A DNA stretch of 24,496 nucleotides from a virus: the IMG/VR virus record IMGVR_UViG_3300042398_001160, positions 1-24,496 of that record; one strand, written 5' to 3'. Positions 1 to 24,496 of this stretch are shown here, piece after piece; position 1 is the first letter of the stretch; every line of letters starts with the position of its first letter. A program made the position numbers and the translations under genes. Below the pieces are notes generated by a model that had not been told where the DNA came from, did not search any database, and saw nothing but the letters and a program-made list of their open reading frames with translations.

Positions 1-830
1 ATGTAGTTATCAACTTCTACCGGTGGAATATTACCAATATCAATTTTAAATATTCTTTTTTCAGGTGCTCTCATAATACGATGGATTAACATCGCATCTT
101 CCATAAGAGATAATTGTTTCCAAATTCGTCTAGCCCCTTCTACCATTGATTTACCATAAGGTAGAAAGTTCGTATCAGATAACATACGAAAGTGAGCCAT
201 TTCATATTGCTCATATTCTTTTTTACCAAACCTATCCATTTCTACCTTATACTTAACGTAGTTTTGGTTGTTAGGGTCAGTACCTTCCAATCTCTCTACA
301 TTGTAAATTGAATGTGGCATACAATTGATAACTCCTTTACCTTCTGCAATTTCTAATGCTAAGAAAGCATCGCCATATTTTACTAAGTTTCTAACCCAAG
401 GCCATAAGTTGAATTCTATATTCAATACATCATAAAATAGGTTGTGTAATAATTCTCTTACGTTTTCATTTGTAGATTTAATCTGAATTACATCCCCATA
501 TTCATTCTTAGTTGTAGATTCATCCGCATATATATCTAATGCAGATGATATAATTGGGTCACTATCCATAGCATCATAATCTCTAAAAAGTTCTCTACGA
601 ACTTGATGGTATGCCATTGATTGAGCACCCTGCTGAGTTTCATAATAAGACCTTTGTAACTTTGTATATCTATCTCTAAGATTTACGAAGTTAGTATTAT
701 ATTGACGGTCTTCAGTATCTACAACTTTTCTCTTACCATCTTTATCAACCGTTACAATCGCATTGGTTGAAAATAGTTTTTTAAGTCTACCAAAGAAATT
801 CCTATCGTCTATTTGTTGTTCTTCTGCCAT
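1..830 (-). CDS. Portal protein, gp20-like (N-terminal part, runs off the window)
   Basis: N-terminal 276 residues of a T4 gp20-type portal, the dodecameric ring at the head vertex through which DNA is packaged. Start is the ATG whose complement lies at 828-830, 8 bases after the stop of the preceding gene; the frame is open to base 1, so the C-terminal half is outside the window. Visible support: an early MAEEQQIDDRNFFGRLKKLF segment, a helical middle, and a stretch near residues 250-273 (IMRAPEKRIFKIDIGNIPP) that closely resembles the conserved RAPERRxFYIDxGNLP signature of T4-like portals. The leader AAAATAAATT has no Shine-Dalgarno sequence. The gene follows TerL and one small protein, fitting the late head module of T4-like phages, but sheath and tube genes (18, 19) that separate 17 from 20 in T4 are absent here. 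Confidence 0.93.
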   Translation of the reverse strand, partial: MAEEQQIDDRNFFGRLKKLFSTNAIVTVDKDGKRKVVDTEDRQYNTNFVNLRDRYTKLQRSYYETQQGAQSMAYHQVRRELFRDYDAMDSDPIISSALDIYADESTTKNEYGDVIQIKSTNENVRELLHNLFYDVLNIEFNLWPWVRNLVKYGDAFLALEIAEGKGVINCMPHSIYNVERLEGTDPNNQNYVKYKVEMDRFGKKEYEQYEMAHFRMLSDTNFLPYGKSMVEGARRIWKQLSLMEDAMLIHRIMRAPEKRIFKIDIGNIPPVEVDNY

Positions 831-838
831 AATTTATT

Positions 839-1276
839 TTACCATTTTCTACAGCTCCAGTAGTTTGCTTTTGTTCTTGGACCGGGATTATCACAATTCA
901 TTCTAGCTCTGAATGATTTTCTAGCAGCTGGATTTGATTTTCTAATCTTCATTCCTTTTTGTCCAAAGTTTACTTTAATTACCTTACCTGTTTTTGGATT
1001 CTTAACATATACCTTAAATTTCTTAACATCACCCTGCATTGGTTTACCCAATTTTACTTCTCTACCCTGATATTCTGCTTCGAATACACAAGGACAATTA
1101 GCTTCAGTTAGTTCGTTTGAGTATGATTTTAAAAAGTTAATAAAATCATCCATATCTTCTTGCTCAACATCCAATTCATCATAATCATCAATTGGATTAT
1201 CTTGCGGAGTATCCCCCATAGAATATGCATTATCTACATATTCATCTTCATTTAGGATATTTGTTAATCTAATCAT
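839..1276 (-). CDS. Small conserved virion-associated protein of unknown function, possibly head-internal
   Basis: 145 residues, function not recognised. The N-terminal half is strongly acidic (about residues 20-45, rich in D/E); the C-terminal half is basic and ends in a compact Cys/Trp motif: a KVNFGQKGMKIRK strand, then RKSFRARMNC, PGPRTKANYWSC and a final RKW. I know this C-terminal motif as recurrent in marine T4-like phage genomes, where it remains unassigned. Cys at CPC (residues 61-63), NC and SC could bind metal. The extreme N-terminus reads MIRLTNILNE, with an I/L-x-E pattern of the kind cleaved by the T4 prohead protease gp21, so a role as a packaged or core protein is possible (inference). 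It sits between TerL and portal with its own 52-base AT-rich leader, so it is probably expressed late with head genes. Confidence 0.8.
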   Translation of the reverse strand: MIRLTNILNEDEYVDNAYSMGDTPQDNPIDDYDELDVEQEDMDDFINFLKSYSNELTEANCPCVFEAEYQGREVKLGKPMQGDVKKFKVYVKNPKTGKVIKVNFGQKGMKIRKSNPAARKSFRARMNCDNPGPRTKANYWSCRKW

Positions 1277-1328: not shown

Positions 1329-2924
1329 CTACAACCATTGAGTTAAATCTTCCATACTATCCCCAATTTGCATCTTCCATGGATTATCTTCCATATTACT
1401 ACCACCATATACACCGGAGTGTTGCATGTTTGATGATATACCACCCATAGCCCTTTTAGTTAAATCAATACCTTCTTGCTTTAAACGAAGTGCGGTATCT
1501 CTAACCCACAATCCAATACAAAATGCCATTACCAAGTCATCATTATAACTTTTCATAGCTTCAGCCCTACCATTGTTGAATATAAAAGTAAATAACTCAT
1601 CTATTAAACGATTGGAACGAACAGTCACTGCTTTTTCTCTAAAGTATTCATCTAATTTAGAAATAATAAGGGGTCTAGTCTTAGATGTGGTAGAAAATCC
1701 AGCTACCATCTGCCTTTCATCTGCTCGGTATTTGTTTCTCATTTGATTTTCTACATCCACATACTTTAAATCCTTACTCATATAGAATAGGTTTTTGTAT
1801 GCTCTATCAATCACCTGCTGAATACAAGCCCAACCAATGTTTGCATTCTCTATTACAAGTAGTGCATCATTATATTGTGTGGATAATTCAACTAAGAAGT
1901 TTCCAAAATCTTTTGTATCAACCTTACCTTTATATTCGGCTACCTGTGTACAAGTGTTTATTTCCATAACGTGCGCTGCGGAATAATCCGAACCATCTCC
2001 TCTAGCTACGTCCGCAATAACCATATAAGAACCATTTGCAGTTGGGTATTCCCATCTCCATAAATTACCATCGAACCCAGTTTTCTCTAATGGTTCTTGG
2101 CAAAATGATTCTTTATAGAACATTAATAGTTCCGGTTCAATTACGGTATCACCGGAAGATACGAAGTCACAATCACACTCTTGGGCTGCTTTCTTTGCTC
2201 CCAATAGTTTTTCTTGCTCAGCCCTCCAAGCTTCACCTCTTTCAGGGTGTAAAGTCCAATGTAATTTAATTGTATTGAATGGGTTAGTACCTTCTTCTGC
2301 GTTTAACCAAGTTTTATGAAACCAGTTACCCACACCATTTGGAGTAGAAAGTGCTATACAAGCTCCACCCGTTGATAAGGTAGATTGAGCTGCCACCCAA
2401 ATCTCATCGATATCATCAATGAAGGCGGCCTCATCAAATATAAGAAGTGATAAGGCTTCAGAACGTCCTGCATCAGGAGAACTAGCAATAGCCTTAATTT
2501 GAGAGCCATTATTTAAACGAAGGGAAAGTTTGTTATCTTCCAAAGAACCTCCTTTAAGCCAGCCGGGAAGTAATTCATGCATTACTCTTACCTTTGTTAC
2601 TAAGTTCTTTGCAACATCTTGTTTTGTTGCAATAACCAATACATTATAATCTGAATTAAATATCATTTTCCAAAGTGCATATCCAGCCGATAGGGTTGAG
2701 ATACCAGTTTGACGTGATTTTAAAACTATATTAAATCGATTATCTTTAAATTGTGTTAGAGTTTTTTCCTGAAATGGGAAAAGGTGAAATGGTATCTTAC
2801 CTCTAACAGGATGCTGAATCATACAATACTTCTTCATAAAGTGAATCGGGTCTACCGCACACTTTTTGTATTCTTCTGCTACTATCTCTTTTAGAGATTT
2901 CTTTTGTGTTATACCAGTACTCAT
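1329..2924 (-). CDS. Terminase large subunit, gp17-like
   Basis: 531-residue packaging motor ATPase-nuclease that drives DNA through the portal and cuts the concatemer. ATPase domain: P-loop region SRQTGIST at residues 70-77, Walker B LLIFDEA around 160-166 (D164, E165), coupling motif ALSTPNG near 191-197. Nuclease domain: first acidic residue in IADVARGDGSDYS (D305), second in LLVIEN (E359), third in SYNDDLVMAF (D462/D463); all three RNase H-fold metal positions are present, so the protein looks intact. The P-loop has Ile where the usual Walker A Lys would be, as seen in other distant T4-like terminases that rely on the preceding Arg. Start chosen at ATG 2924, one base after the stop of the upstream gene (TAATATG), so translation is probably coupled. 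Length is close to that of marine gp17 homologues. Confidence 0.95.
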   Translation of the reverse strand: MSTGITQKKSLKEIVAEEYKKCAVDPIHFMKKYCMIQHPVRGKIPFHLFPFQEKTLTQFKDNRFNIVLKSRQTGISTLSAGYALWKMIFNSDYNVLVIATKQDVAKNLVTKVRVMHELLPGWLKGGSLEDNKLSLRLNNGSQIKAIASSPDAGRSEALSLLIFDEAAFIDDIDEIWVAAQSTLSTGGACIALSTPNGVGNWFHKTWLNAEEGTNPFNTIKLHWTLHPERGEAWRAEQEKLLGAKKAAQECDCDFVSSGDTVIEPELLMFYKESFCQEPLEKTGFDGNLWRWEYPTANGSYMVIADVARGDGSDYSAAHVMEINTCTQVAEYKGKVDTKDFGNFLVELSTQYNDALLVIENANIGWACIQQVIDRAYKNLFYMSKDLKYVDVENQMRNKYRADERQMVAGFSTTSKTRPLIISKLDEYFREKAVTVRSNRLIDELFTFIFNNGRAEAMKSYNDDLVMAFCIGLWVRDTALRLKQEGIDLTKRAMGGISSNMQHSGVYGGSNMEDNPWKMQIGDSMEDLTQWL

Positions 2925-3660: not shown

Positions 3661-6426
3661 TTAACTATCGAAAAATATTCCTAAAATTTGGTTAAGCGGT
3701 GCGAATGCACCTGTTAGTTTGTAGGTGTTACCATTATATACAAATACAATACCTTCGTTTGGTACAATTTTATCAAATCCACCTAATGCGTTTAAACGTT
3801 GTAGTTCTAATTTAAGTTTTTCAATCTTTTTAGGGTCACCACTTGCTTTTACTTGTTGAATCGTAGATTCCAAACGTGCTACCATTTGTCTTTTTGCTGA
3901 TTCTGGATTTGCCGTAAGTACCGAGCTCATAAATGATAATACATCGGCACCAACTCCTAAGAATATCTCCTCAAATCTCATTAGGTTTTGTTTTGATATC
4001 TTTTGTTGGTCTTGTTTATCAGTTTGCTCAGCCCAATCTTTTAATTTAGGGTCTTGTATTGTTGCTATTCTGAATGATTTATCACCGAATGCCCATCTCT
4101 TTACTAATCCTATTTTTTCTTGTGCATCTAATTTCTTTCCACCTTTTTCTACAAACTTACTCCACCAAGCCTGATGGTATTCTCCCACACCATCATTATC
4201 AGATAGTCCAAACTCCGATTGTAATTTAGAAATCATTCCTAAATACTTTCCTTGTAATTTGGCTAGTTGTTCTGATTTAGGTAACTTAGTCATTGGTGGT
4301 CCTTGTATTGTGTACTTAGATTGTACATGCGCATTTACTTGCTTAATCATACCACCTAATATAGATGCCGCTTGTTGGTTCTCACCTACAATAGTACCAG
4401 CATCATCATATTCAAATGTACCATGAAATACTAATAGGGGTTGGTTGTAAGGGATTACGTTTACGGATGTTGGATATATTACTTCCAAATTCATAAAACA
4501 TGCACCATCCTTAAAAATCTTCTTTCTTTGTGGTTCGGATAAAGCTGCTATTGCTTTTGATAAATCTTGCATAGCGAAGTTGTAAGCATCAGTTAATCCA
4601 CCTCTACCAGCAAACTTATCTGCTACTTGCCCTATTGTCATAGCACCTTCACCTTTATTCTTTAGATGTGATTTGTTACGAGCTGCTACTAATCTACCAT
4701 TTACCCAACTAATTGCCAATGCCTGACCATCAGTTTTTTCTCTAGCTAATTCCAAATCACCATTCAGTGCTTTAGTTACGATATTTTTAAGGTCACCAAA
4801 AGTAAGATTCATTTGAATATCAAATGGATGATTCATGTGACCATAAGCCCCACCTTCTAATAATAAAGATTCGTTTACTGATTTGCGATTGATATCTCTT
4901 TTTTGTAAAACTAAAGTGTTTATTTGTGAAAATATATCTGCAATATCTTTATTTAATTTTTTTTCATCTGCACTCATTGGAGATTCGATATCAACATTAG
5001 AGTAAAGTTTTTTCTTTTTTGCAATTAATACATCTGCTTTTTTAAGTAAATCAGATTTCACTTTATCCAAATCTTTTAGGATTTCAGATGAAGTTGCTTC
5101 TTTTACAGGTGTGTATTCATCGCCATTATCACCATCCAATTTAGATTTTAACTTCTTTACATCTTTTGGGTCTGGTGCTCCATTAATATATCCACCAGGT
5201 AAAGATAATCCCACACCAGCTCCACCACCTAATCCCATTTCACTCATTATGCTTTCTTCAAACTCATCCATAATTTCATTGATATCTTCTTTCGAAATTA
5301 TAGTATCCTTTTGATTATCAGGTAATTCCCAAAATCTTTTAGGTTTTTCATCAGGATTTTCTCTATAAGCATCTTCCCAATCTTCTACCTTAAATGGGTC
5401 ATCCGCTGGATTTAATGTACTTTGTGTTACATTCTTTAATTTATAGTATGCTTTTCTGAATTGAGTTTCTGTATCTTTTGATTTTCCTCTACCCCTCATA
5501 GCGTCTGCTTTAGGAGTATCCATTTGAGTATATCCACCTTGCTTATACCAATTTTCAGGCTTAGCTGTGTTTAATATTCTAGGTTGTCCATCTGCTACAA
5601 ATGATGTATCAGGCTCATCCTGTCCGCCAAATCCACTATTAGATGCTGTTTCTTTTAATTGCTCTTTTTTAGGGATTCTAAATGTTACTGCTTTTTTACC
5701 ATTAATTGTTGGCATTCCCCATTCATCTTTACCAATTGATTTAACAACAACTTTTTTATTTTTAAACTTACCCATTAACAAAGTATCACCAATATTTACG
5801 TTTAGTTTAATTTCTTCGTTAATACATTCTTTTAATCCCTTTAACTTAAGAGTAATTAATTTGAATATTTGGTCATCGAATTTTGGATATGCTTTTGTAA
5901 AGTTTTTCTTTCGTTCCGCTTCACTACCACTACTTAACCAATAACGCACATCAGTTCCACTAATAGCGTTTGGTTGTGCTGGTGAAGCGTACACATATCC
6001 TTTATCTAAATACCCTTGCTCTACTTTACCTTTATATGGTGTAAAATATTTACCACTTAAACGTGAAGAATCTTTTTCACCTACCACAGTTATAAAACCA
6101 GTAGTATCTGAATCAAATTTATTAAGTATTTCTTGTGGAGCGTATGGATTTTTTATGTTGAAAATTTTGTTTGATGGAATACCAAACATCTTCATCATTA
6201 TTGCTTTCTTTTCCTTAAAATTAAATGGAGATTTTTTTGAATCGGTAACATTAGAAGTTCCGATATATACGTTATCTTTTCCGAATTTGCGTATTAAGTT
6301 TTCATAAGTTGCGTAATGACCCTTATGAAATGGTTGAAAGCGGCCTGAATAGACAACCACCACATCGTCTATCCCAGCCGCTTCTCCCAATATTGTTTCT
6401 ACTAAAAAATTTGACAATCCCTTCAT
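3661..6426 (-). CDS. Fusion of NMN-adenylyltransferase-like domain and nucleic-acid-ligase-like nucleotidyltransferase
   Basis: 921 residues with at least three modules. Residues 21-195: a nucleotidyltransferase α/β-phosphodiesterase-type fold with GRFQPFHKGH (28-37, the HxGH motif) and ISGTDVR (155-161, like the ISxTxxR motif of NMN adenylyltransferases). Residues 208-252: a small SH3-like module (GDTLLMGKFKNKKVVVK) common in marine phage proteins. Residues 260-520: low-complexity/helical linker. Residues 525-921: a domain carrying what look like all covalent-nucleotidyltransferase ligase motifs in order: I = EKTDG (K564), Ia-like RNKS (583-586), III = NLEVIYP (646-652), IIIa = LLVFHG (664-669), IV = EGIVFVY (891-897), V = YKLTG (902-906). 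Known role of these families: NAD synthesis, and strand joining through a lysyl-AMP. The N-terminus has two I/L-x-E sites (LVE at 8-10, LGE at 13-15), as in T4 internal head proteins. The combined function is unknown; it sits between the glycosylation and packaging blocks. Confidence 0.85.
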   Translation of the reverse strand: MKGLSNFLVETILGEAAGIDDVVVVYSGRFQPFHKGHYATYENLIRKFGKDNVYIGTSNVTDSKKSPFNFKEKKAIMMKMFGIPSNKIFNIKNPYAPQEILNKFDSDTTGFITVVGEKDSSRLSGKYFTPYKGKVEQGYLDKGYVYASPAQPNAISGTDVRYWLSSGSEAERKKNFTKAYPKFDDQIFKLITLKLKGLKECINEEIKLNVNIGDTLLMGKFKNKKVVVKSIGKDEWGMPTINGKKAVTFRIPKKEQLKETASNSGFGGQDEPDTSFVADGQPRILNTAKPENWYKQGGYTQMDTPKADAMRGRGKSKDTETQFRKAYYKLKNVTQSTLNPADDPFKVEDWEDAYRENPDEKPKRFWELPDNQKDTIISKEDINEIMDEFEESIMSEMGLGGGAGVGLSLPGGYINGAPDPKDVKKLKSKLDGDNGDEYTPVKEATSSEILKDLDKVKSDLLKKADVLIAKKKKLYSNVDIESPMSADEKKLNKDIADIFSQINTLVLQKRDINRKSVNESLLLEGGAYGHMNHPFDIQMNLTFGDLKNIVTKALNGDLELAREKTDGQALAISWVNGRLVAARNKSHLKNKGEGAMTIGQVADKFAGRGGLTDAYNFAMQDLSKAIAALSEPQRKKIFKDGACFMNLEVIYPTSVNVIPYNQPLLVFHGTFEYDDAGTIVGENQQAASILGGMIKQVNAHVQSKYTIQGPPMTKLPKSEQLAKLQGKYLGMISKLQSEFGLSDNDGVGEYHQAWWSKFVEKGGKKLDAQEKIGLVKRWAFGDKSFRIATIQDPKLKDWAEQTDKQDQQKISKQNLMRFEEIFLGVGADVLSFMSSVLTANPESAKRQMVARLESTIQQVKASGDPKKIEKLKLELQRLNALGGFDKIVPNEGIVFVYNGNTYKLTGAFAPLNQILGIFFDS

Positions 6427-6865: not shown

Positions 6866-6884
6866 TTTGTATATATAAGTATAT
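6866..6884 (-). promoter_or_regulatory. Repeated AT-rich element upstream of the 127-residue coiled-coil gene, candidate late promoter
   Basis: Exact second copy of the 19-base sequence at 3625-3643 (minus strand ATATACTTATATATACAAA), ending 21 bases before the ATG at 6844 and touching the stop codon of the upstream kinase gene by one base. Its placement would let the 127-residue gene be transcribed apart from the glycosylation operon. Promoter function is inferred from repetition and position only. Confidence 0.45.
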
Positions 6885-7636
6885 TATTTTTTAGTTTTAA
6901 ACACAGAAACTCCTTTTTCTTTTACAACTTCACCAGCACAATGATTTGCCCATTCAATTGATTCTTCTATGTTTTCGGAATCTAAGTATTTAGATATAAA
7001 TCCAGCTACAAATGTATCACCAGCACCACTAACATCAGCGGTATCTACGGATTGTACTTTAAATGTTTGTGTTTTGTACATAGCACCACCCCTATCTAAT
7101 GTACATATAATTTTGTCAAATAACCAATCATTTTCTTTTATAACTCCAAAGTTGTTTTGAAATTCTTGTCTATTTACTTTGATAAATGTAATATCCTTAC
7201 ACCAATCTCCAAGCCTTTTCTTTGTATCCAAAATAACCAAGCTATGCAATGATGCTATTGTATTGATATCTTCTTCTTTTAAAAATCCCTTACAATAATC
7301 CGATATAACTACTGCATCGTATTTTAGCAAATCAGGCAAGTCGTAAATATCTATTCTATTAGTTGTATCATTCTCATCAACTCGTAAATACAGTTCGTTT
7401 GTATCTTTATTTACATACCTTGTTTTAGTAATCATTCCTTTATCAAAATATGTATCAACATCCAAACCCATTGCCATCAGGTTATTAGCAGTGTTACCGG
7501 CCATACCCAATCCATATGTTTCACTAATTGGAACAAAAACAGGTCCATTTCCTTCTGGAGATTTTCTTTTAGATACTCCGTATTTAAAAATATCCGTACA
7601 TACTTCTCCAATAACTAAAACTTTATTTTCCATCAT
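6884..7636 (-). CDS. D-glycero-β-D-manno-heptose-7-phosphate kinase, HldE domain I-like (PfkB family)
   Basis: 250 residues. PfkB/ribokinase fold matching the kinase half of HldE (RfaE1), which phosphorylates heptose-7-phosphate at C1. Seen: GEVCTDIFKYG near the N-terminus, KRKSPE (23-28, cf. RISPEAPVPV of HldE), GLGMAGNTANNLMAMG (42-57), SDYCKG (112-117, cf. SDYxKG) and the PfkB signature VSGAGDTFVAGF with the catalytic Asp at 207. Usual HldE kinase domains are about 320 residues, so this is a compact version, but the substrate and ATP motifs are kept. It has two adjacent ATGs (7636 and 7633); both overlap the end of the adenylyltransferase gene, so translation is coupled. With that gene it would give ADP-heptose; the isomerase GmhA and phosphatase GmhB are not in the window and would come from the host or elsewhere in the genome. 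Confidence 0.88.
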   Translation of the reverse strand: MMENKVLVIGEVCTDIFKYGVSKRKSPEGNGPVFVPISETYGLGMAGNTANNLMAMGLDVDTYFDKGMITKTRYVNKDTNELYLRVDENDTTNRIDIYDLPDLLKYDAVVISDYCKGFLKEEDINTIASLHSLVILDTKKRLGDWCKDITFIKVNRQEFQNNFGVIKENDWLFDKIICTLDRGGAMYKTQTFKVQSVDTADVSGAGDTFVAGFISKYLDSENIEESIEWANHCAGEVVKEKGVSVFKTKK

Positions 7637-8012
7637 TCAATATCTTAGTTGTACTTACACCTTCTATCTTTTTAAAAAATTCAATATGAGGTATGTATTC
7701 TACTCCAATTATTTCTTCATGTTTATAATCATCACCAATTACCATAATATCAGGCTTCCATTCATATATTCTGTTAATAAGTTCATCATCCGTATCGAAA
7801 GATACAACAGAATCAACATAACGAATAGATGTGATAAAATCCATCCTATCAGATAAGCTGTTAAATGGTCTTGTTTCCCCTTTCTTTTCACTAACTCTTT
7901 TATCCGTGTCCAATCCCACTCTAACAACTCCGAATGATGAAGCATGTTCAAGCAAACGTATATGCCCAATATGTACAATATCAAAAGTACCATTTACCCA
8001 AACTTTTTTCAT
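7623..8012 (-). CDS. D-glycero-β-D-manno-heptose-1-phosphate adenylyltransferase, HldE domain II-like
   Basis: 129-residue cytidylyltransferase-fold enzyme matching the C-terminal half of HldE (RfaE2), which makes ADP-heptose from heptose-1-phosphate and ATP. Seen: NGTFDIVHIGH (8-18, HxGH), KKGETRPFNSLSDRM (cf. LKGDSRPVNPLEQRM of E. coli HldE), DSVVSFDTDD (cf. WVVSFEEDT), PDIMVIGDDYKHEEIIG (cf. PDLLVKGGDYKPEEIAG) and EGVSTTKI (cf. CSTTNI). The glycerol-3-phosphate cytidylyltransferase TagD is the main alternative (same length and some shared motifs), but the RPxN, VVSF and DYKxEEI(I/A)G features and the adjacent heptose kinase favour HldE. In most bacteria the two HldE halves are fused; here they are separate overlapping genes in reverse order (transferase first). 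Its ATG overlaps the stop of the heptosyltransferase as TAATG. Confidence 0.87.
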   Translation of the reverse strand: MKKVWVNGTFDIVHIGHIRLLEHASSFGVVRVGLDTDKRVSEKKGETRPFNSLSDRMDFITSIRYVDSVVSFDTDDELINRIYEWKPDIMVIGDDYKHEEIIGVEYIPHIEFFKKIEGVSTTKILNDGK

Positions 8013-9160
8013 TATAAGAACTTTTCTAATTCTTTTATAACCATTTCTGATGTTATAGTTTTAGTACATTCGAATTGTCTTTCAGTTCCTTTATGGTCAG
8101 GACACCAGTTCCAATCACCAGCATCTAATTTAACTCTATTAAAACATCCTTCGCATTTTCCCTCAGGCGCGCCAATCCTAACACAATCTTCCATCTCCGC
8201 CCATTTGTATGAGAATCCACTTATAATAACAGTAGGTACATCCAATGCCCAACTCAACCAACTCAATCCACTACCAATACCAATAAATGCTTTTGATTTT
8301 TTCATTTCATCCATTACCAATTCAATTGGTCCGTTTGGATGTTGAATTATTCCTGTTGGTAATTTATTACCCATATAGTTATCACCTTCTTTGGAAAGTA
8401 ATCTAACTTTATAACCTCTATTATTTAACCAATCTACCACATCCTGCCAACCAGTTGGATTATTCCAAAATTTAGATTGAGCAGTACCATATGTTGCGAT
8501 ACAAACCTGCTTTAAATCATTATCAATAGCTACTGTTCTTTTTTTAACCTTAGGTCTAATTTCTTCAAAATCCAATCCTAATATATCAGATGCCATTCTT
8601 TGCATAGTAACTGATTTTGGGTCTTTTGGATTTTTGAATAAATTAACAGAACCATTTTCATTATAAAACAATCCAACACAATACATACCATAGATATCAG
8701 TAACAGCAACGCCAGGTGTAACAAATTCAATATCAGGATATCTAGTACTAAACATATCATTCATAAAGGTAGATACTATTACTTGTGCTTTATGTTTTTT
8801 TCTAAATTCTTCAACGTAAGGAATCCATGCTAAACTATCCCCCAAAGCTTTAGAATCCATTGCTATGTATATTCTTTTATTTTCAGCATTGTAAACTGTT
8901 TCATACCATAATTTTCCGTTTTCGTAAATTACAATTTTCCACTCAATAAAATATTCAATACTACATCTACACCAACAATTGTTTTTTATTGTATTGGTAT
9001 AACATATTTCTCCTGTTTTATTATTTATGAACTCAATTTTATAATCGGCTTCTTTAGGTCCTTTTACTTCAACAAAAGGTCCATTTATAAAATGATAAGA
9101 AACCTGATTTTGAATTTCTCTTACATTATTTTTTATTTTAACTAAATTATCGTATATCAT
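8012..9160 (-). CDS. TibC/Aah-like (BAHT family) protein O-heptosyltransferase
   Basis: 382 residues from the ATG at 9160 (TAATG overlap with the upstream stop); an in-frame TTG at 9169 would add three residues. GT-B glycosyltransferase related to GT9 heptosyltransferases, most like the autotransporter heptosyltransferases that transfer heptose from ADP-D,D-heptose to Ser/Thr. Seen: an N-terminal β-rich region with CWCRC (about 62-66); KALGDSLAWIPYVEEF with the Asp (D108) in the position of the GT9 catalytic base; QSKFWNNPTGWQDVVDWL; IGIGSGLSWLSWALDVPTV, the C-terminal donor-binding region; and near the C-terminus four cysteines, C336-x2-C339-x13-C353-x11-C365, matching the pattern of the TibC iron finger. 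The two downstream genes supply the expected donor. The acceptor is unknown; phage fibre proteins nearby are candidates. Confidence 0.85.
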   Translation of the reverse strand: MIYDNLVKIKNNVREIQNQVSYHFINGPFVEVKGPKEADYKIEFINNKTGEICYTNTIKNNCWCRCSIEYFIEWKIVIYENGKLWYETVYNAENKRIYIAMDSKALGDSLAWIPYVEEFRKKHKAQVIVSTFMNDMFSTRYPDIEFVTPGVAVTDIYGMYCVGLFYNENGSVNLFKNPKDPKSVTMQRMASDILGLDFEEIRPKVKKRTVAIDNDLKQVCIATYGTAQSKFWNNPTGWQDVVDWLNNRGYKVRLLSKEGDNYMGNKLPTGIIQHPNGPIELVMDEMKKSKAFIGIGSGLSWLSWALDVPTVIISGFSYKWAEMEDCVRIGAPEGKCEGCFNRVKLDAGDWNWCPDHKGTERQFECTKTITSEMVIKELEKFL

Positions 9161-11322
9161 TAACTCCAAGTTTTAATTGTTTCATCTATTAAAGAATACC
9201 CTTCGGCCTGCTTACAATAAACTTTATTTGTGGTATATCTTAATTTTGGTTCTTTATAAAATACATCAGTCAACCAAATATCAAATCCTTCCCAAGGGGT
9301 ATCATTAAATCTATCAACCCACCATTGTTTAGTTTTATTTGGAATTAAATATGCGTGTGCTAAATCCTGATTTGCTGCTGTCTTTGAAAAATACTCATCA
9401 ATTCTTTCTTTATTCATTGAACTATTATTAGCAAGTCCCATATAATATACATCATCTCTTTCGGATAAAAAACATGCTCTATTTACAATCTCAACAAATT
9501 CTTCCAATCCAGTATAGATAAATGCATCAGCTTCAAATATTAAAGTATAATCATAGTTATCATCCATTGTTTCCAATGCTTTTCTATGTGCACTAAAACA
9601 ACCATAATGTCTGCCTGTTAAAGGTCCTAAACCATTTCCAAAGTTTCCAGGTTTATCTGAAATATGTTCCGCTCTTTTACAAAATTCAGATGGTGGTAAT
9701 CCTTCGTATGGTTTATTCACCATTGGCAAGTAATCTATACCATACTTTGCCAATTGCTTTATAGATGCCATGCTAACTCTTTCTCTAACATCTTCAGGTT
9801 TAGTCAATAAATGTCTAACTTGAATTTTTGGTTTTTTACGAATGAATGAACGGAATCCTTTTTCAAATTGTTTATAAAAATATTCATCTGCAGCTTGAGT
9901 AACTCCGTGAAACACACCATAATCATCTCCACTAACAATACCTCCAGGTTTTACTTTATTATACCAAGCTTTTAAATCTTCCATTAGAGCATCGTATGAA
10001 TGACCAGCATCTAACATAAGATAATCAATACTTCCATTTGCGAATTGATTTGATGCATTCTTAGATGTATCTTTAATCATATTAATATGACCGTAGTTAT
10101 CAGATAGAATTGAATTATCAACAAATTCGTAAAATATATCTCCCGCAAAAGAACCTACAATTTCCTGATGGATATCTTCATCATCCGTACCTTTCCAAGT
10201 ATCAACAGTTGTAAATTGAATATTCTTTTTAGATTCTCTAATTTGTTGTGCCATATAGTTTGTTGATTTACCAAACCAAGCACCCACTTCAACAAATACA
10301 TCATCATTACCAGCTGCTTTAACTACATCAGTATAAAGGTCTTGATATGCAAACCAACCTGGTATTTCATTAAATTCAGGTTTCAGTTTATCTAAAATAT
10401 ATCGTTTGGTTAATTTCAAATCAGCATTGATATATTGTACCAATGGATTATTATCATATGTGTCCAAATATGTATGTAACTTTCTAAACAAAGAAGGCAT
10501 CTTAAATGAAAGTGCTTCCTTAACGGAAAGTGGATTCAATTCCAATGTTGATGAAAAATAAAAAAGGTCACATGCTGCATAAAATGTATCAACATCATCT
10601 CGTTCACCCCATATTACACAATTGTCAGGTTTATGTTTCATCAATGGTAACCAATAATGTTCATAGTTCATAGCCTGATTTCCTACAAAATGAAATTTAA
10701 TTTTATATTTTTCTAATTGTCTTGCTATTGAAAATATTTCGGCTTGATTTTTGCCAGGTGAAAATAAACCAACATTCAATACATGCTTATAAGTTGGGTC
10801 TAATCCCAACAATTCCATAGATTGTTTTTTATCAAACGTATAATCTTCTATTGGATATTCCCATAATGTAGTTTCAATACCAGTATCTTCAAATCTTCTT
10901 CTACTCCATTCGGATACTAAAACATATCTATCTGGATGATATACTATATCAGCTGGGTTTGTAAAAGAACCATGTGTTGTTGCTAAAATAAAATAAGTTC
11001 TATCCTCTCTGAATATTTTATCCAAAACAAAAGTAGGTAAATCAAATTGTGGAATCTCCTGAAAATGTATAATATCCGGATTAAATTGTTCTATCACTTT
11101 CAATACTTCAGATTTATCATCACCTAAAGTATGTACTACTGCTAAAGATTTTATTCTATTTTTTTGTACTACAAAAGCAGTACCTCCACTATTATTTAAT
11201 TCTACAACTTCAATATCAAAATCTTTGATGAAGTGTTTTACTTGCTTATATGTGTATTGAGGTTGTCCACCAGTAGATAAATGCGGACATATGTAAAGTA
11301 ACCTTTTACGTGTTTTTTCCAT
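9160..11322 (-). CDS. Three-domain glycosyltransferase-methyltransferase-glycosyltransferase fusion
   Basis: 720 residues, three recognisable enzymes. Residues 5-315: GT-B, GT4-like glycosyltransferase with STGGQPQYT (16-24), VLNVGLFSPGKNQ (181-193) and an E-x7-E motif (E261, E269 in LELNPLSVKEAL). Residues 325-500: class I SAM methyltransferase of the Methyltransf_24 type, with VEVGAWFGKS (344-353), TVDTWKG (372-378) and LDAGHSYDALMEDL (437-450). Residues 505-720: GT25-like glycosyltransferase with YGCFSAHRKALE (573-584) and LIFEADAF (594-601), the equivalent of the EDDA metal-binding motif. Likely builds and methylates a short glycan. It is the first gene of the cassette behind the Bacteroidota-like promoter at 11341-11372, and its TAA overlaps the heptosyltransferase ATG. 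Acceptor and sugars cannot be told from sequence. Confidence 0.87.
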   Translation of the reverse strand: MEKTRKRLLYICPHLSTGGQPQYTYKQVKHFIKDFDIEVVELNNSGGTAFVVQKNRIKSLAVVHTLGDDKSEVLKVIEQFNPDIIHFQEIPQFDLPTFVLDKIFREDRTYFILATTHGSFTNPADIVYHPDRYVLVSEWSRRRFEDTGIETTLWEYPIEDYTFDKKQSMELLGLDPTYKHVLNVGLFSPGKNQAEIFSIARQLEKYKIKFHFVGNQAMNYEHYWLPLMKHKPDNCVIWGERDDVDTFYAACDLFYFSSTLELNPLSVKEALSFKMPSLFRKLHTYLDTYDNNPLVQYINADLKLTKRYILDKLKPEFNEIPGWFAYQDLYTDVVKAAGNDDVFVEVGAWFGKSTNYMAQQIRESKKNIQFTTVDTWKGTDDEDIHQEIVGSFAGDIFYEFVDNSILSDNYGHINMIKDTSKNASNQFANGSIDYLMLDAGHSYDALMEDLKAWYNKVKPGGIVSGDDYGVFHGVTQAADEYFYKQFEKGFRSFIRKKPKIQVRHLLTKPEDVRERVSMASIKQLAKYGIDYLPMVNKPYEGLPPSEFCKRAEHISDKPGNFGNGLGPLTGRHYGCFSAHRKALETMDDNYDYTLIFEADAFIYTGLEEFVEIVNRACFLSERDDVYYMGLANNSSMNKERIDEYFSKTAANQDLAHAYLIPNKTKQWWVDRFNDTPWEGFDIWLTDVFYKEPKLRYTTNKVYCKQAEGYSLIDETIKTWS

Positions 11323-12272: not shown

Positions 12273-13118
12273 TTATAAACAAGATCCACAATTAACTCCA
12301 GTTGTAGCAGGAACAAATAATGTATAATTTGCAGGGCCAGGATAAGCTCCCAATCCAACTACAGACCATATATCCCCACTATATGATACACAACCAGGAT
12401 TACTTCCTGCAATTGCTTCATAAGTATATTGAGCTCCCGTATATGCTCCCGCACCAGTACAAGGTTCATAATCCCAATATTCATATACAACAGGCGGTGG
12501 AGCTGCAGGTGGTGTTGGTGGGGCTGGACATGCACTACAATTCGTTCCTACATAGGTAGAACCATCACCCAAATCAATATCAAAAGAAGGACCAAATGTT
12601 TCTTCGGTTATTCTAACACAAACACCCGGTGTGTCGGTTTCAAATACGCTGAAAGCTACCTGGTCAACAGTAAACCTTAGAACCACAGGAGTTGCACTAA
12701 AACAATATTCACCACTATAATAGAAATAAGATGATGCTGCTGGAGTTGGTGCTGCTGGCGCCGGAGTTGGTGCTGCTGGAGCTGGGGTTGGTGCTGCTGG
12801 CGCCGGAGTTGGTGCTGCCGGTGCTGGTGTTGGAGCTGCAGGTGCCGGAGTTGGTGCCGGTGTTGGGGTTGGTGCCGGAGTTGGGGCGCCCGTTACACTT
12901 ATATCTTGATAAACTGATGCACATGTCCCAGTACCTTTTACTCTAACAGAAGTTGTACCATCAGGTACACTTAATGCATATCCACTTACCAATGTTGCTT
13001 TAGCAACACCACTAGCTACCGCAGTTGCATAACTATCGTAATTGGAAAAAATATCTAATGTAGATACCGTTGCTCCAAATGTTCCTGCTGCGTATGTTAT
13101 GTTTACCCAAAATGCCAT
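12273..13118 (-). CDS. Proline-repeat, Cys-rich adhesin-like virion protein (281 residues)
   Basis: No family firmly recognised. Residues 1-77: small β-rich (Ig-like) domain starting MAFWVNITYAAGTFG, with no signal peptide. Residues 78-128: Pro/Ala/Thr linker containing five exact copies of APAAPTP (92-126). Residues 131-197: domain with C139, C167, C194 and C197. Residues 198-217: second Pro linker. Residues 218-281: second domain with C220, C243, C277 and C280. Both Cys domains share the layout C-x(~25)-C-x(~30)-C-x2-C, which also occurs once in the neighbouring 705-residue protein, suggesting disulfide- or metal-stabilised modules. Bead-and-linker architecture and position after the tail-fibre gene suggest a fibre or head decoration protein. 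The linker is a candidate target of the hydroxylase encoded next and of the glycosyltransferases. Leader AATAATTATATACA has no Shine-Dalgarno sequence. Confidence 0.8.
   Translation of the reverse strand: MAFWVNITYAAGTFGATVSTLDIFSNYDSYATAVASGVAKATLVSGYALSVPDGTTSVRVKGTGTCASVYQDISVTGAPTPAPTPTPAPTPAPAAPTPAPAAPTPAPAAPTPAPAAPTPAPAAPTPAASSYFYYSGEYCFSATPVVLRFTVDQVAFSVFETDTPGVCVRITEETFGPSFDIDLGDGSTYVGTNCSACPAPPTPPAAPPPVVYEYWDYEPCTGAGAYTGAQYTYEAIAGSNPGCVSYSGDIWSVVGLGAYPGPANYTLFVPATTGVNCGSCL
12741..12845 (-). repeat. Five tandem 21-base units encoding APAAPTP
   Basis: Codes residues 92-126 of the 281-residue protein. The peptide unit is identical five times while third codon positions differ between units (for example GCC/GCT/GCA for Ala, CCA/CCG/CCC for Pro), so the repeat is kept at protein level and is not a fresh DNA duplication. 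Confidence 0.85.
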
Positions 13119-13156
13119 TGTATATAATTATTATTTTTTTCTATTTTATTATTAAT

Positions 13157-15274
13157 TTATGGAGTGGGACAAGGGGAACATCCTTCAGGACATGTTTCAC
13201 CGAAATATTCTGCACAACCAGCTCCACAATCACACCATACACTAAATCCTGCTTCAGGTGATGGTGTTGGTGTTGGTGCTTCAGGTGTTGGTGTTGGAGC
13301 CGGTGTTGGTGCTGGTGCAGGTGTTGGTGATGGACTTCCAGCATAACATACTGCTCCACCACTCAATACTCCGGATGTAGAATACCAAACACTACCACCT
13401 ATAGCGTAATATCCATCCGTAGGAGTTCCAGTTCCATTGGAGTTATTATATATTGAAATACCATTTGAGGTAGGGTCATTATTCTGATTGTATTTCACAA
13501 CATAATCAGCAATTTCCCAATTTGTACAAGCTATATCAGGATCAGCACCATGGAATCCGTAATTCAATGCATTCAATACTGGTGCTGCCGGTGCTGGCGT
13601 TGGAGCCGGCGTTGGTGTTGGTGTTGGTGGTGGTGCTGCTGGCGCTGGAGTTGGAGCAGGAGTTGGTGCCGGCGTTGGTGCCGAAATTGGTGGTTCACCA
13701 GGAGGTATTTCTTCTGATTGAGGTGGTGGTGCTGTTGGTGTTGATATTGGTGATGGTGTTGGTGCCGGTGTTGGTGCTGTTGGCGGACCAAAGCAATAGG
13801 GCTGACATTCCATTAGGTCTGCGTATATTCCCAAACCAGGTCCAATATATGTACATGTACCATCAACACAATCCCAATCTAAAGAAGATGCAGGTGGTGG
13901 TGCTGCAGGTGTTGGTGTTGGTGCTGCAGGTGTTGGAGTTGGTGCTGCCGGAGTTGGAGTTGGTGCTGCTGGCGCCGGAGTTGGTGCTGCAGGTGCCGTT
14001 ACTTGTGATGCCGTACCACCACTTATTGTACAATCCGCACAATCAACAACAACGTTTCCTAAACTTCTACTACCATATGAATCATACAATACAACTGCAT
14101 ATGTACCATTTGCTAAACTAGCTGGTCCATTTCCAGCTCCAACAGTATAAGAACCAGCTCCATTAAGAGTAAAGTAATATCCAGTACCAGTACCACCAGC
14201 TACACTCGTCACATCGATTCTAGCATTTGTTGCTGTGAAATCGATACAAGTAAATCCAGCCGTACCAGTTGGTGCTTCATAACATGCAATTGTTTCAGTA
14301 GAAAGTACACTAACGTTTCCAATACTATCATATAATCTAACAATATATGAACCATCTGCTAATCCAGTTGCACCAGTTGCTCCAGTTGAATATGAACCAG
14401 CTCCATTTAATGTGAAGTAGTATCCTGTTCCAGTTCCACCAGCTGGCGATGTTACTGTAATCTTACCACCTGCGTTATTTGTAGATGTACATACCTTTGC
14501 AACAGTTCCACTTGGTGCAATATAACATGCTAATGTTTGTGATGTTAATGCTGCAGAATTTCCACCATCATCATATAAATTCACAGAGTATGTACCATCT
14601 GCTAAGCTATCCACATTTGTTGCAGCTGCTCCAGCTATTCCATAACTACCTGCTCCATTTAATGTAAAATAATAAACACCAGTACCACCAGAAGGAGTTA
14701 CCGTTATTCTACCATTTTGTCCACCATTATCTAAACAAGATTGTGCTGATGTACCACTTAAAGCAGGTAAAGATGAATTACAAGAAGTACAAGTTAGATA
14801 AGCACTTATTACAGAAATACTCGTCCCATCTACTAATGAACCTGTTGTATCTTGTTCAACTATTGTATAACAATATCCAGATGGGTATGGAGACCCAAAT
14901 CGTATTGCCATATTATTTGAATAATTACCAAACGGAGAAACAGATAGGTATTTATATCCACCTGTACCATTGCATCTAATTACTTTTAATCTTTGTGGTG
15001 CACTTGATGGAGGTGTGTATGGTGGTGGTGGTGGAGTTGGGCCGGGAGTTGGGGGTGGGGATGGTGGTAATTGACTATAAACTCTCCATCTACGAGATTC
15101 AACTCCATCTATTATTGTAAAAGTACCTAAATCCTGCACTTCTGCTTCGTTTGGATATGTCAATGAGCTTATCCTACCTACAAAATCAATACCACCACCT
15201 CTAATAGTGACATTAATTTGAGGTCCAGTATTACCAGCCGGTTGTACCCATCCTACGTTTCCTTCTCTAGCCAT
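13157..15274 (-). CDS. Multidomain proline-linker protein with SprB-like repeats and Cys-rich modules
   Basis: 705 residues arranged as beads on Pro/Thr/Ala strings. 1-66: β-rich N-terminal domain (MAREGNVGWVQPAGNTG), probably the virion attachment part. 68-93: Pro linker. 97-165: Cys domain (C101, C135, C162, C165) of the type seen twice in the 281-residue neighbour. 180-415: three Ig-like repeats of about 80 residues, each with GGTG..YYFTLNGAGSY, a L(A)(D/N)G(T/S)Y strand and a LYD end, resembling the SprB repeat of Bacteroidota surface adhesins. 427-462: Pro linker. 468-494: C-x4-C ... C-x3-C mini-domain. 497-565: long Pro linker with PTPAP units. 566-645: unrecognised domain. 647-673: Pro linker. 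681-702: dense Cys cluster (seven Cys). No signal peptide. Located just downstream of the tail fibre, so a receptor-binding or fibre-associated role is likely; hydroxylation or O-glycosylation of the linkers is inference. Confidence 0.82.
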   Translation of the reverse strand: MAREGNVGWVQPAGNTGPQINVTIRGGGIDFVGRISSLTYPNEAEVQDLGTFTIIDGVESRRWRVYSQLPPSPPPTPGPTPPPPPYTPPSSAPQRLKVIRCNGTGGYKYLSVSPFGNYSNNMAIRFGSPYPSGYCYTIVEQDTTGSLVDGTSISVISAYLTCTSCNSSLPALSGTSAQSCLDNGGQNGRITVTPSGGTGVYYFTLNGAGSYGIAGAAATNVDSLADGTYSVNLYDDGGNSAALTSQTLACYIAPSGTVAKVCTSTNNAGGKITVTSPAGGTGTGYYFTLNGAGSYSTGATGATGLADGSYIVRLYDSIGNVSVLSTETIACYEAPTGTAGFTCIDFTATNARIDVTSVAGGTGTGYYFTLNGAGSYTVGAGNGPASLANGTYAVVLYDSYGSRSLGNVVVDCADCTISGGTASQVTAPAAPTPAPAAPTPTPAAPTPTPAAPTPTPAAPPPASSLDWDCVDGTCTYIGPGLGIYADLMECQPYCFGPPTAPTPAPTPSPISTPTAPPPQSEEIPPGEPPISAPTPAPTPAPTPAPAAPPPTPTPTPAPTPAPAAPVLNALNYGFHGADPDIACTNWEIADYVVKYNQNNDPTSNGISIYNNSNGTGTPTDGYYAIGGSVWYSTSGVLSGGAVCYAGSPSPTPAPAPTPAPTPTPEAPTPTPSPEAGFSVWCDCGAGCAEYFGETCPEGCSPCPTP
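13256..13336 (-). repeat. Pro/Thr/Ala-coding low-complexity repeat (C-terminal linker of the 705-residue protein)
   Basis: Codes residues 647-673, alternating SP, TP, AP and EAP dipeptides. Locally GC-rich in an AT-rich genome; + strand reads as GGTGTTGGTGCT-like units. Confidence 0.75.
13580..13786 (-). repeat. Long Pro/Thr/Ala-coding repeat (central linker of the 705-residue protein)
   Basis: Codes residues 497-565, dominated by TPAP, TPTP and APAAP units, interrupted by an acidic QSEEIPPGEPP spacer. It separates a Cys mini-domain from the unrecognised 566-645 domain. Confidence 0.75.
13889..13996 (-). repeat. Tandem APTPTPA-coding units following the SprB-like repeats
   Basis: Codes residues 427-462 with a seven-residue period (AAPTPTP, one unit AAPTPAP), the same period and near-identical unit as in the 281-residue protein, pointing to common origin of the two linkers. 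Confidence 0.8.
14030..14737 (-). repeat. Three tandem Ig-like (SprB-type) repeat modules
   Basis: Codes residues 180-415 of the 705-residue protein. Copies begin near residues 180, 262 and 343 and share GGTG(T/V)(G)YYFTLNGAGSY; copies 2 and 3 are the most alike. Each copy starts and ends near a Cys (C180, C250, C262, C331, C343, C412), so inter- or intra-module disulfides are possible. Confidence 0.75.
15039..15060 (+). other. Potential G-quadruplex on the template strand
   Basis: Runs GGG, GGG, GGGGG and GGGG separated by 2, 4 and 1 bases fit the G3+N1-7 quadruplex pattern. It lies in the Pro-coding linker (residues 68-93) of the 705-residue gene, on the strand used as template for transcription. 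It could simply follow from CCN proline codons. Confidence 0.4.
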
Positions 15275-22843: not shown

Positions 22844-24496
22844 TTATTTTAATAAAAATTTGTCAGTAATTACCTTATCTAATCCAGTAGTATCTCTAAT
22901 TAGTATAGCATCGGCATATCTATTTAGTATTGGATTACCCTGAATATTGAATGATGTATTCAATAATACCGGTATATGTCCTCTATTTTCTAACTTTGAC
23001 AATAGTGTATATATTAATTCATTTTGATGTTTAGTTACAGTTTGCAATCGTGCTGTACCATCTATATGTGTTATTGCTGGTATTTTACTTTTGTACTTTT
23101 CTTTTACAATAGAATTATGAGTCATCCATCTAGTATGATTACCAAATTCAAAAAACTCACTAGCATCTTCTAATCTAACAACAGGTGCAAAAGGTCTAAA
23201 CATTTCCCTATGCTTTACTTCTGAATTTAATTTTTCTTTCATGCCAACCGATGGCATACATATTATACTTCGATTACCTAAAGAACGAGCGCCATGCTCA
23301 CTATTACCCTGAATGATTCCTATAATTTTACCATTTATTAAATCTGTTACAATTTCTTCTATATTTAAATCAAAATAATCGGGCAAACTATCATATGGTT
23401 CAGAACCCAAATATGTAGAATCTATGATGTTTCCTGTTTTTATTTTACTCAAAACAAGCCCTAATGCAATACCCCTATCGTCTGGATTTGGTGATACAAA
23501 TGCATCGTATATACTATTATTTATTATATTCATAGCACCACCTCCACTAAATTGCAATTCCCTATCTTTATATTTTTCAATGAATGGTTCTACTATTTTT
23601 TTAAACGTTTTTTCAAAAACAAATTGATTTACTCTTGCTAAATCTTTTTCAAAATTACCCGTTAACCTTGTTTCATTTGTAAATCCAAATATTTTTTGAA
23701 ATCTATAATGTGCATTATTAACATCATCTGTTTCTTGGCCTTCATAAAATTCAACCATCTTACTAACCAATAATGCCGTATTATTTCCATATGATGATAA
23801 TCCCATAAGTTTTCCAGCATAAACTAAATTACCTATCCACCAATTATCTTCTCTTTTTATTGAACTTAAATAATGTGCTATTGTTTGATAACAAACTGCC
23901 AAGTCTTTTGAAGATGTAAAAATCTTTTCAGGTTCTTTACCTCTTTCACCTAAATAAATATTGAATGTACCCTCATCACTACCACCATCAAATGAAATAT
24001 TTAATGATTTTTTAGAAGGTGATTGATACATAGCATTACATACATGCGCGTAGTGATGTGGTTTGAATTCATAATTTTTAGCAGGAAATTGTAAATGTGC
24101 AGTTTTACTTGAATTCCAAATAACGTTATCATAATAATATGCACCATATTTATTTTTAAAATATTCGTAAATATTTTTTGCAACATCATCGGGATTATCT
24201 ATTGGAAAATGATAATAAAAAGCTGCATTCTTTTTGTTAACCCATCTTTCTAATTCAACAACTTCTAATACATCACCTTTATAAGATATTGCCATAGCTG
24301 AATTATGTGAACCAAAGAATCCTAAATTAAAATAATTTCTCTCATACTTCCAGCAAAAATCCCAAATCTTATCCCAACTATAAGATTCAACTTCCCAAGG
24401 AAACCTATCGTAGTTTAATTTTGGTAATTTAAAATTAGTGCCTTCTCTATGAAAATCAAGTTTATTAGAATATCCTCTTAATATGTTTATGTAATC
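22844..24496 (-). CDS. NodU/TobZ-type carbamoyltransferase with an upstream fused region (5' end outside window)
   Basis: O-carbamoyltransferase that activates carbamoyl phosphate with ATP and carbamoylates a sugar or nucleoside hydroxyl. Open for 550 codons to the window end. The enzyme proper starts near YFNLGFFGSHNSAMAISYKG (the usual LGxxxxHNSAxA N-terminus), which lies upstream of the first ATG (24295); starting at that ATG would delete the first β-strand, so I extend the gene to 24496. Further motifs: HHYAH (HxxxH metal site), NISFDGGSDEGTF, FSGGGAMN, GNSEHGARSLGNRSI, FRPFAPVV and NTSFNIQGNPI, all in family order. About 55 residues before the carbamoyltransferase are aromatic-rich (FPWEVESYSWDKIWDFCW) and belong to another, unidentified domain. 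Phage homologues usually occur with glycan or modified-base genes, consistent with the cassette downstream. Confidence 0.9.
   Translation of the reverse strand, partial: DYINILRGYSNKLDFHREGTNFKLPKLNYDRFPWEVESYSWDKIWDFCWKYERNYFNLGFFGSHNSAMAISYKGDVLEVVELERWVNKKNAAFYYHFPIDNPDDVAKNIYEYFKNKYGAYYYDNVIWNSSKTAHLQFPAKNYEFKPHHYAHVCNAMYQSPSKKSLNISFDGGSDEGTFNIYLGERGKEPEKIFTSSKDLAVCYQTIAHYLSSIKREDNWWIGNLVYAGKLMGLSSYGNNTALLVSKMVEFYEGQETDDVNNAHYRFQKIFGFTNETRLTGNFEKDLARVNQFVFEKTFKKIVEPFIEKYKDRELQFSGGGAMNIINNSIYDAFVSPNPDDRGIALGLVLSKIKTGNIIDSTYLGSEPYDSLPDYFDLNIEEIVTDLINGKIIGIIQGNSEHGARSLGNRSIICMPSVGMKEKLNSEVKHREMFRPFAPVVRLEDASEFFEFGNHTRWMTHNSIVKEKYKSKIPAITHIDGTARLQTVTKHQNELIYTLLSKLENRGHIPVLLNTSFNIQGNPILNRYADAILIRDTTGLDKVITDKFLLK

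Follow-up and report, generated by a model that had tools for sequence, protein, structure and literature searches.

We analyzed a 24,496-base stretch of viral DNA (hereafter the window), which is the whole of IMG/VR record IMGVR_UViG_3300042398_001160, and propose that a minus-strand gene at 3661..6426 encodes a two-enzyme precursor that is packaged into the phage head and cleaved, both enzymes being delivered with the phage DNA. We assign this reading a probability of about 0.55. The open reading frame (ORF) listing gives the gene an ATG start and 921 codons' worth of amino acids, and the plus strand across the same interval contains many stops. In order along the protein lie a candidate targeting peptide, a nicotinamide mononucleotide (NMN) adenylyltransferase (NMNAT)-like domain, a small GKFKNKK module, a variable linker and an RNA ligase-like domain. 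An earlier note on this DNA had already described a fusion of an NMNAT-type domain with a ligase-like one, and motifs, Pfam and predicted fold agree on it. Absent from the note were the start resembling a capsid-targeting sequence (CTS), the motifs for a protease, the location among head genes and the relatives that are polyproteins, and its idea that the two domains are coupled through nicotinamide adenine dinucleotide (NAD+) fared poorly, as described below.

Our packaging proposal is based on the CTS-like start, junctions of the form [LI]xE, a prohead protease in relatives, head-gene neighbors and virion-located NMNAT-like homologues. The RNA ligase-like assignment is based on invariant motifs, two AlphaFold models, an extended motif III like that of Rnl1, and RNA-repair modules in the same polypeptides.

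Conserved motifs of the RNA ligase-like domain

Motifs and predicted fold delimit an RNA ligase-like nucleotidyltransferase domain with a helical insertion at residues 525-921 (3664..4854, minus strand, as are all features of this protein). Alignment places motif I at KTDG (residues 564-567, 4726..4737), with K564 as the candidate lysyl-AMP site; the motif Ia position at R583 in ARNK (from residue 582; K+19; 4678..4680); motif III at E648 in NLEVIYPTSVNVIPY (4483..4485), which reads NFEFVAPTNRIVLAY in T4 Rnl1; the motif IIIa position at H668 in FHGTFEYD (4423..4425); motif IV at E891 in EGIVF (3754..3756); and motif V at K903 in YKLTG (3718..3720). The corresponding segments are NLEVIYP from residue 646, HGTFEYD from 668, EGIVFVY from 891 and YK at 902-903. 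K564, D566, G567, R583, E648, E891, G892, F895 and K903 are identical in 53/53 sequences, down to about 25% identity, and A582, N584, Y660 and T905-G906 are likewise invariant. Because the catalytic residues are identical in every sequence, including relatives about 25% identical, these motifs, which stand where the earlier note had placed them from K564 to K903, are not a product of chance.

The spacings from the motif I lysine to R583 (19 residues), from the motif III glutamate to IIIa (20) and from motif IV to V (12) fit those of RNA ligases. The extended motif III, N-x-E-x3-P-x7-Y, has a spacing equal to that of the T4 Rnl1 family. The long interval between motifs IIIa and IV, previously estimated at about 220 residues, measures 223 from H668 to E891, and both AlphaFold models render most of it as helix. 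Only 18 residues follow K903.

Searches of Pfam, PHROGs and NCBIfam returned no match for the C-terminal domain. In Pfam, neither PF09511 (the T4 Rnl1 family) nor DUF6267 (PF19782) matched the window protein. The domain has the predicted fold of T4 Rnl1 and Naegleria-type (Rnl5) ligases, and their motifs I, Ia, III, IV and V follow one another in it as they do there. It differs from them in having no Pfam match, a gap of about 220 residues between IIIa and IV, an end shortly after motif V, and ARNK where Rnl1 has KSKGS.

Predicted fold of the RNA ligase-like domain

The earlier note would have been refuted by a predicted fold lacking an adenylation domain; structure prediction instead yielded the adenylation-domain fold of RNA ligases in two AlphaFold models. 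The window domain, modeled from 30 sequences, reached a predicted local distance difference test score (pLDDT) of 81 and a predicted template modeling score (pTM) of 0.73; the corresponding values for a relative about 25% identical (L178) were 83.6 and 0.81. Foldseek against the PDB put RNA ligases at ranks 1-16 for the window model, with weak E-values of 0.06-0.4, and for L178 it ranked ligases in the top 26 rows, with T4 Rnl2 at E 0.0026. In VIA, rows 1-30 for the window model were all nucleic-acid ligases, nearly all of them RNA ligases, led by Naegleria Rnl (Z 7.1) and including T4 Rnl1 (6.9). By VIA's own note a Z near 7 is not decisive by itself, and we therefore accept the ligase fold of this model from the uniform match list rather than from the Z value alone. 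The L178 model matched ligases in 50/50 of the matches listed, over about 190 residues at 4 Å, with Z values of 9.1 for Naegleria Rnl, 8.1 for T4 Rnl1, 7.6 for Rnl2, 7.5 for Trl1 and about 6-7 for DNA ligases. The strands bearing motifs III, IIIa, IV and V are placed properly in both models, and a mostly helical insertion (model residues ~165 to 365) separates IIIa from IV; judging from the models, it may replace the missing C-terminal domain of the Rnl1/Rnl2 type. We consider the ligase-type fold and motifs of this domain well supported and highly probable. Searching solved structures by sequence, with a profile of the C-terminal domain, gave only chance matches to ribosomal protein eS6, which we discarded.

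RNA ligases rank above both DNA ligases and capping enzymes in these structure matches. We weighed two other explanations of the domain. In the first, it has a ligase fold but does something else: it might adenylylate proteins or metabolites, or take part in structure or assembly. T4 Rnl1 also promotes tail-fiber attachment, the gene lies in a late cluster beside virion genes, and the protein has no canonical C-terminal RNA-binding domain. Moreover, canonical Rnl1 is encoded as a separate gene in Microcystis phage Mel-JY01 and in LR756508, so that classical RNA ligation may already be covered there. The invariance of all catalytic residues, the structural ranking and the presence of RNA-processing modules in the same polypeptides nevertheless make this explanation improbable.

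The second is the coupling suggested in the earlier note, in which NAD+ produced by the NMNAT half serves the ligase half as AMP donor. NMNAT-like and ligase-like domains are indeed linked in many phages, in both orders and also as neighboring genes. However, the nearest structures are ATP-dependent RNA ligases, Pfam (E 1) detected none of the NAD-binding Ia or OB/HhH/BRCT domains of LigA in the window protein, and the NMNAT-like and ligase-like halves would probably be cut apart at sites between them. We accordingly set aside an NAD-dependent DNA ligase identity and regard NAD+ coupling as very improbable.

The NMNAT-like domain and the linker

Motifs and Pfam define the NMNAT-like domain at residues 21-200 (5827..6366). 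It contains GRFQPFHKGH (28-37), SPF (66-68), VGEKD (115-119) and ISGTDVR (155-161), in agreement with the HxGH (here HKGH, 34-37) and ISxTxxR motifs read earlier. Pfam CTP_transf_like (PF01467) matches residues 25-161 above its cut-off (35.7 bits, cut-off 21, E 1.2e-8), and a phmmer search of the PDB found 2qjt (E 4e-4). The nearest NCBIfam models are NMN adenylyltransferases, with PRK05379 (NMNAT/Nudix) on top; the best score of 32.3 bits does not reach the NMN-specific equivalog cut-off of 397. Phage NadM (NMNAT-Nudix) and NadR (NMNAT-kinase) have an NMNAT domain of the same superfamily, whereas the partner in the window protein is ligase-like, a fusion not described in the passages of PMC9503650 consulted. 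Marine relatives (e.g., L171 4156-4734) carry GRFQPFGPHH instead of GRFQPFHKGH, and since the first histidine of HxGH is replaced in them, their substrate or activity may differ.

The small basic GKFKNKK module GDTLLMGKFKNKKVVVKSIGKDEWGMPTINGKKAVTFRI occupies residues 205-256 (5659..5814), between INE|EIK and LKE|TAS; in marine relatives, it often immediately follows the targeting peptide. The linker that comes next (residues 261-520, 4867..5646) varies in length and content among relatives. In L058 (10001-13342), L052, L075 and similar loci, closely related phages have exchangeable modules between NMNAT and ligase, including a zinc-ribbon-like CDNC..CHKC segment and a VEEGFTKGQLFAGKMKVGG module.

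A capsid-targeting-like start and protease-motif junctions

The capsid-targeting tag of T4 is MKTYQEFIAE. The first ten residues of the window protein, MKGLSNFLVE (6397..6426), form a candidate propeptide of this kind: its start, MKGLSNFLVE|TILGE|A, fits the T4 CTS positions with L4, F7, L8 and E10, and a second [LI]xE ends at E15. In T4 internal proteins such as IPIII, the first ten residues direct targeting, with positions 4 and 7 serving targeting and 8 and 10 serving processing, and gp21 cleaves after L/I-x-E (PMC9026906). T4 Alt and the internal proteins carry a cleavable N-terminal targeting peptide, as we propose for the window protein, but are different enzymes.

In the window protein, [LI]xE sites end at residues 10, 15, 200, 204, 259, 384, 524 and 631, and only 631 lies clearly within a folded domain. 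The site at 522-524, LLE (4855..4863), is a candidate prohead-protease site directly before GGAYGH at the start of the ligase domain. Among relatives, [LI]xE ends 46/50 distinct hexapeptides immediately preceding this domain, a junction that is kept although its flanks diverge. It also occurs within the first 18 residues of 48/50 distinct family N-termini but only 240/811 other ORF starts, a comparison that is not a probability because the family members are related.

A protease of the type that might use such sites occurs in relatives. The T4-type prohead protease (PF03420) was present in 12/15 family records tested and lies about 7 kb from the family gene in the L016 contig; the window ends short of that region. 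Peptidase_S78 was found in 0/5 records and was dropped as the prohead protease, the T4-type S77 fitting instead. The Mel-JY01 homologue belongs to a head cluster whose other genes encode a terminase, a prohead protease and a capsid protein. In the window, profile matches identify a T4-type large terminase (1329..2924, minus strand), and we assigned by eye the N-terminal part of a gp20-like portal protein (1..833, minus strand), in the same place as in Mel-JY01.

NMNAT-like homologues have been found in virions of three cyanophages, S-SM1 (T4-GC190, PMC3037559), S-SZBM1 (PMC9146016) and S-CREM2 (PMC10665884). The S-SZBM1 protein, SSZBM1_140, starts with MRFRQFIIEA and matches the NMNAT profile built here (E 1e-11). 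These cyanophage cytidylyltransferase/NMNAT proteins (T4-GC 190; phrog_395, phrog_3041) resemble the window protein in their homologous domain, T4-like N-terminal CTS and presence in virions. They differ in being encoded by a separate gene, usually with GRFNPP rather than GRFQPF, and are unfused to a ligase domain in the genomes examined, except for phrog_455-type fusions. From this evidence, we consider virion packaging of the window protein likely.

Several observations weigh against the proposal as a whole. On the packaging side, 30% of the other ORFs at these loci also have [LI]xE at their start, and the number of such sites in the window protein is not significantly above that in its shuffled versions (6 linker sites against an expected 4.1). 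It is the NMNAT-like protein that published virion lists name (PMC3037559, PMC9146016, PMC10665884); the adjacent DUF6267 protein, SSZBM1_141, is not in the part of the S-SZBM1 virion table consulted (PMC9146016), and the authors of PMC10665884 caution that highly expressed proteins were perhaps not separated from virions. On the enzymatic side, the C-terminal domain of Rnl1 and Rnl2 is absent, the window chain stopping 18 residues after motif V. When our own profile was compared with known RNA ligases and 774 decoys, Rnl1 did not score above the decoys and there was no clear separation; hhalign of the domain against Rnl1 stayed within the shuffle range, and its comparisons with Rnl1 and Rnl2 are suggestive only, sequence profiles alone not being significant. 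NadV, which would supply NMN, was not found in Mel-JY01 and was present in LR756500 only among nine records searched. Finally, packaging and cleavage of the window protein, ATP use and an RNA substrate are what we infer, and for the substrate we count this as a further point on the negative side.

Some of these observations would suit the same two enzymes working unpackaged in the infected cell, as a late repair and NAD enzyme whose propeptide likeness arose by chance or from helix composition. The conservation of [LI]xE exactly at the ligase-domain start despite diverging flanks, the match at CTS positions together with the head-gene location, and the independent detection of NMNAT-like homologues in three cyanophage virions speak against this explanation, which we judge unlikely. 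We thus favor the packaged and cleaved precursor.

Relatives and modular architecture

Relatives of the ligase-like domain occur in at least 570 viral contigs per scan, plus a few contigs of metagenome-assembled genomes. In 50,697 phage records, the domain was found only in Mel-JY01 and two huge metagenomic phages; two more matches there cover the small module or NMNAT only. Family proteins range from 421 to 2070 amino acids. Of 36 representatives, 28 carry CTP_transf_like according to Pfam, 18 have a P-loop kinase of the AAA_33 or Zeta type and one has NUDIX, while CCA-adding-type domains are present in three to four, for which PHROGs name tRNA nucleotidyltransferase (best E 1.2e-65). In L171 (835-6555), L086 and L159, CCA-adding-type tRNA nucleotidyltransferase modules precede the NMNAT-like and ligase-like domains; the PolyA_pol head in L171 scores E 1.5e-29. 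In L040 (2405-5204), a frame change interrupts the ligase domain, 854 aa being followed by 81 aa read in a different frame; the cause is a sequencing error or a real frameshift.

Both domain orders occur, the ligase leading in L170, L175 and L176. The ligase domain forms its own gene in L083/L085 and in L088/L089/L181/L182, starting with MKFLKSYEEFLNE, MALLSYTQFLNE or similar sequences. In the latter four, NMNAT is encoded close by in a gene of its own, and FAEFIFE, FLEFLAE or FEEFILME stands in front of it. The starts of these separate ligase and NMNAT genes are close in form to the T4 tag. That the NMNAT-ligase linkage is repeated in such different forms suggests a shared function.

The family has a trait of polyvalent proteins, namely several disparate enzymatic domains per polypeptide. 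Polyvalent proteins (PMC5512222) combine several unlike enzymes and are predicted to be injected, but rely on a built-in peptidase, whereas we propose that the window family is cut by the prohead protease. Pfam detected no zincin-like peptidase or other typical polyvalent domain in the window protein, and no RNA ligase domain is named among polyvalent proteins in the passages of the 2017 survey consulted (PMC5512222).

DUF6267, a probable sister family

In Pelagibacter phage HTVC008M (L334 8768-15548, gp126-gp132), the modules of marine polyproteins appear as separate adjoining genes: gp127 is a DUF6267 protein, gp128 contains the GKFKNKK module, gp129 is a kinase, gp130 is NMNAT-like, and gp131 is homologous to the product of the window gene at 839-1276. 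DUF6267 (PF19782; T4-GC 71), an unexplained family of cyanophages and pelagiphages that is present in 471 phage records, mostly of marine cyanophages, has ligase-like motifs (HLEH..D, KWDGAP, FHTTY and EGYV..K), also in gp127. It shares with the window domain an H[LM]xHxxD start, KxDG, FHxTxY, EGxV..K and an NMNAT-like neighbor, its gene adjoining a cytidyltransferase (NMNAT-like) gene in cyanophages. Phrog_455 spans DUF6267 and this NMNAT-like neighbor, and hhalign between DUF6267 and the window domain scored 29.9, the maximum of 40 shuffles being 26.4. Unlike the window domain, DUF6267 has QGD rather than NLE at motif III, no Pfam-level match to it and modest profile similarity, and several members have no visible tag-like N-terminus. 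From these sequence comparisons, DUF6267 is probably, though not provenly, a sister of the ligase-like domain.

Other genes in the window

The small protein at 839..1276 (minus strand) has a CTS-like N-terminus, MIRLTNILNE|D, and is 53% identical to HTVC008M gp131 over 81 aa. In Methylophilales phage Melnitz, its counterpart is fused to the NMNAT-like protein, whose C-terminus this small protein resembles (phrog_7595). It may be another packaged cargo of the same system. At 6884-8012 (minus strand), an HldE-like kinase and adenylyltransferase are encoded by two separate genes beside a GT9 glycosyltransferase (8012-9169); together they constitute a phage heptose-type sugar pathway. Two adjacent proteins at 12273-15274 (minus strand) have long proline-rich repeats (APTPAPAAPTPAP), and 22844-24295 (minus strand) encodes a NodU-like carbamoyltransferase, as in some cyanophages.

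Discussion

Already known are RNA ligases of phages, polyvalent proteins, the proteins that T4 packages and, from cyanophage virions, NMNAT-like proteins. We found no paper reporting NMNAT fused to an RNA ligase, or the packaging of an RNA ligase, in the literature searched, which excluded most subscription journals and preprints. Within that literature and as far as shown here, what is new is that this domain, and probably DUF6267 too, is assigned to the ligase type, that it is joined to NMNAT, and that a polyprotein carries RNA-repair modules set apart by protease motifs.

In the mechanism we propose, the N-terminus would act as a T4-like CTS that brings the precursor into the prohead core during assembly. 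A T4-type prohead protease would then cleave the precursor after [LI]xE, so that the tag is lost and the NMNAT-like enzyme is freed from the RNA ligase-like one, and both would enter the host with the phage DNA. The ligase-like enzyme would be ATP-dependent, of an Rnl1/Rnl5-like type forming lysyl-AMP at K564, and would most likely seal or adenylylate RNA ends, for example those of tRNAs cut by host nucleases. The NMNAT-like enzyme would restore NAD+ or a related dinucleotide early in infection. We give these RNA and NAD roles slightly less than an even chance. RNA repair and the countering of NAD depletion, also raised in the earlier note, are plausible and draw some support from the kinase and CCA-adding modules in relatives.

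If the proposal is correct, ready-made RNA repair and NAD synthesis would arrive with the DNA, which would account for the survival of infection through tRNA-cutting and NAD-depleting defenses in its first minutes. It would provide a testable function for an unannotated domain, and probably also for DUF6267, found mostly in marine cyanophages, where the NMNAT-like protein seen in virions has so far had no explanation. It also suggests that the capsid-targeting logic of T4 can bring a single polypeptide into the head and then divide it into several enzymes. More tentatively, and at odds we place somewhat below even, aquatic T4-like phages may carry a first-minute repair kit packaged in the virion as a precursor that the prohead protease cuts. 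Its RNA ligase would represent a new family, to which DUF6267 is sister; an NMNAT would accompany it, and the kits of relatives would also contain a CCA-adding enzyme and a kinase acting on nucleic acids. Once injected, such a kit would undo tRNA cleavage and NAD+ depletion before phage gene expression.

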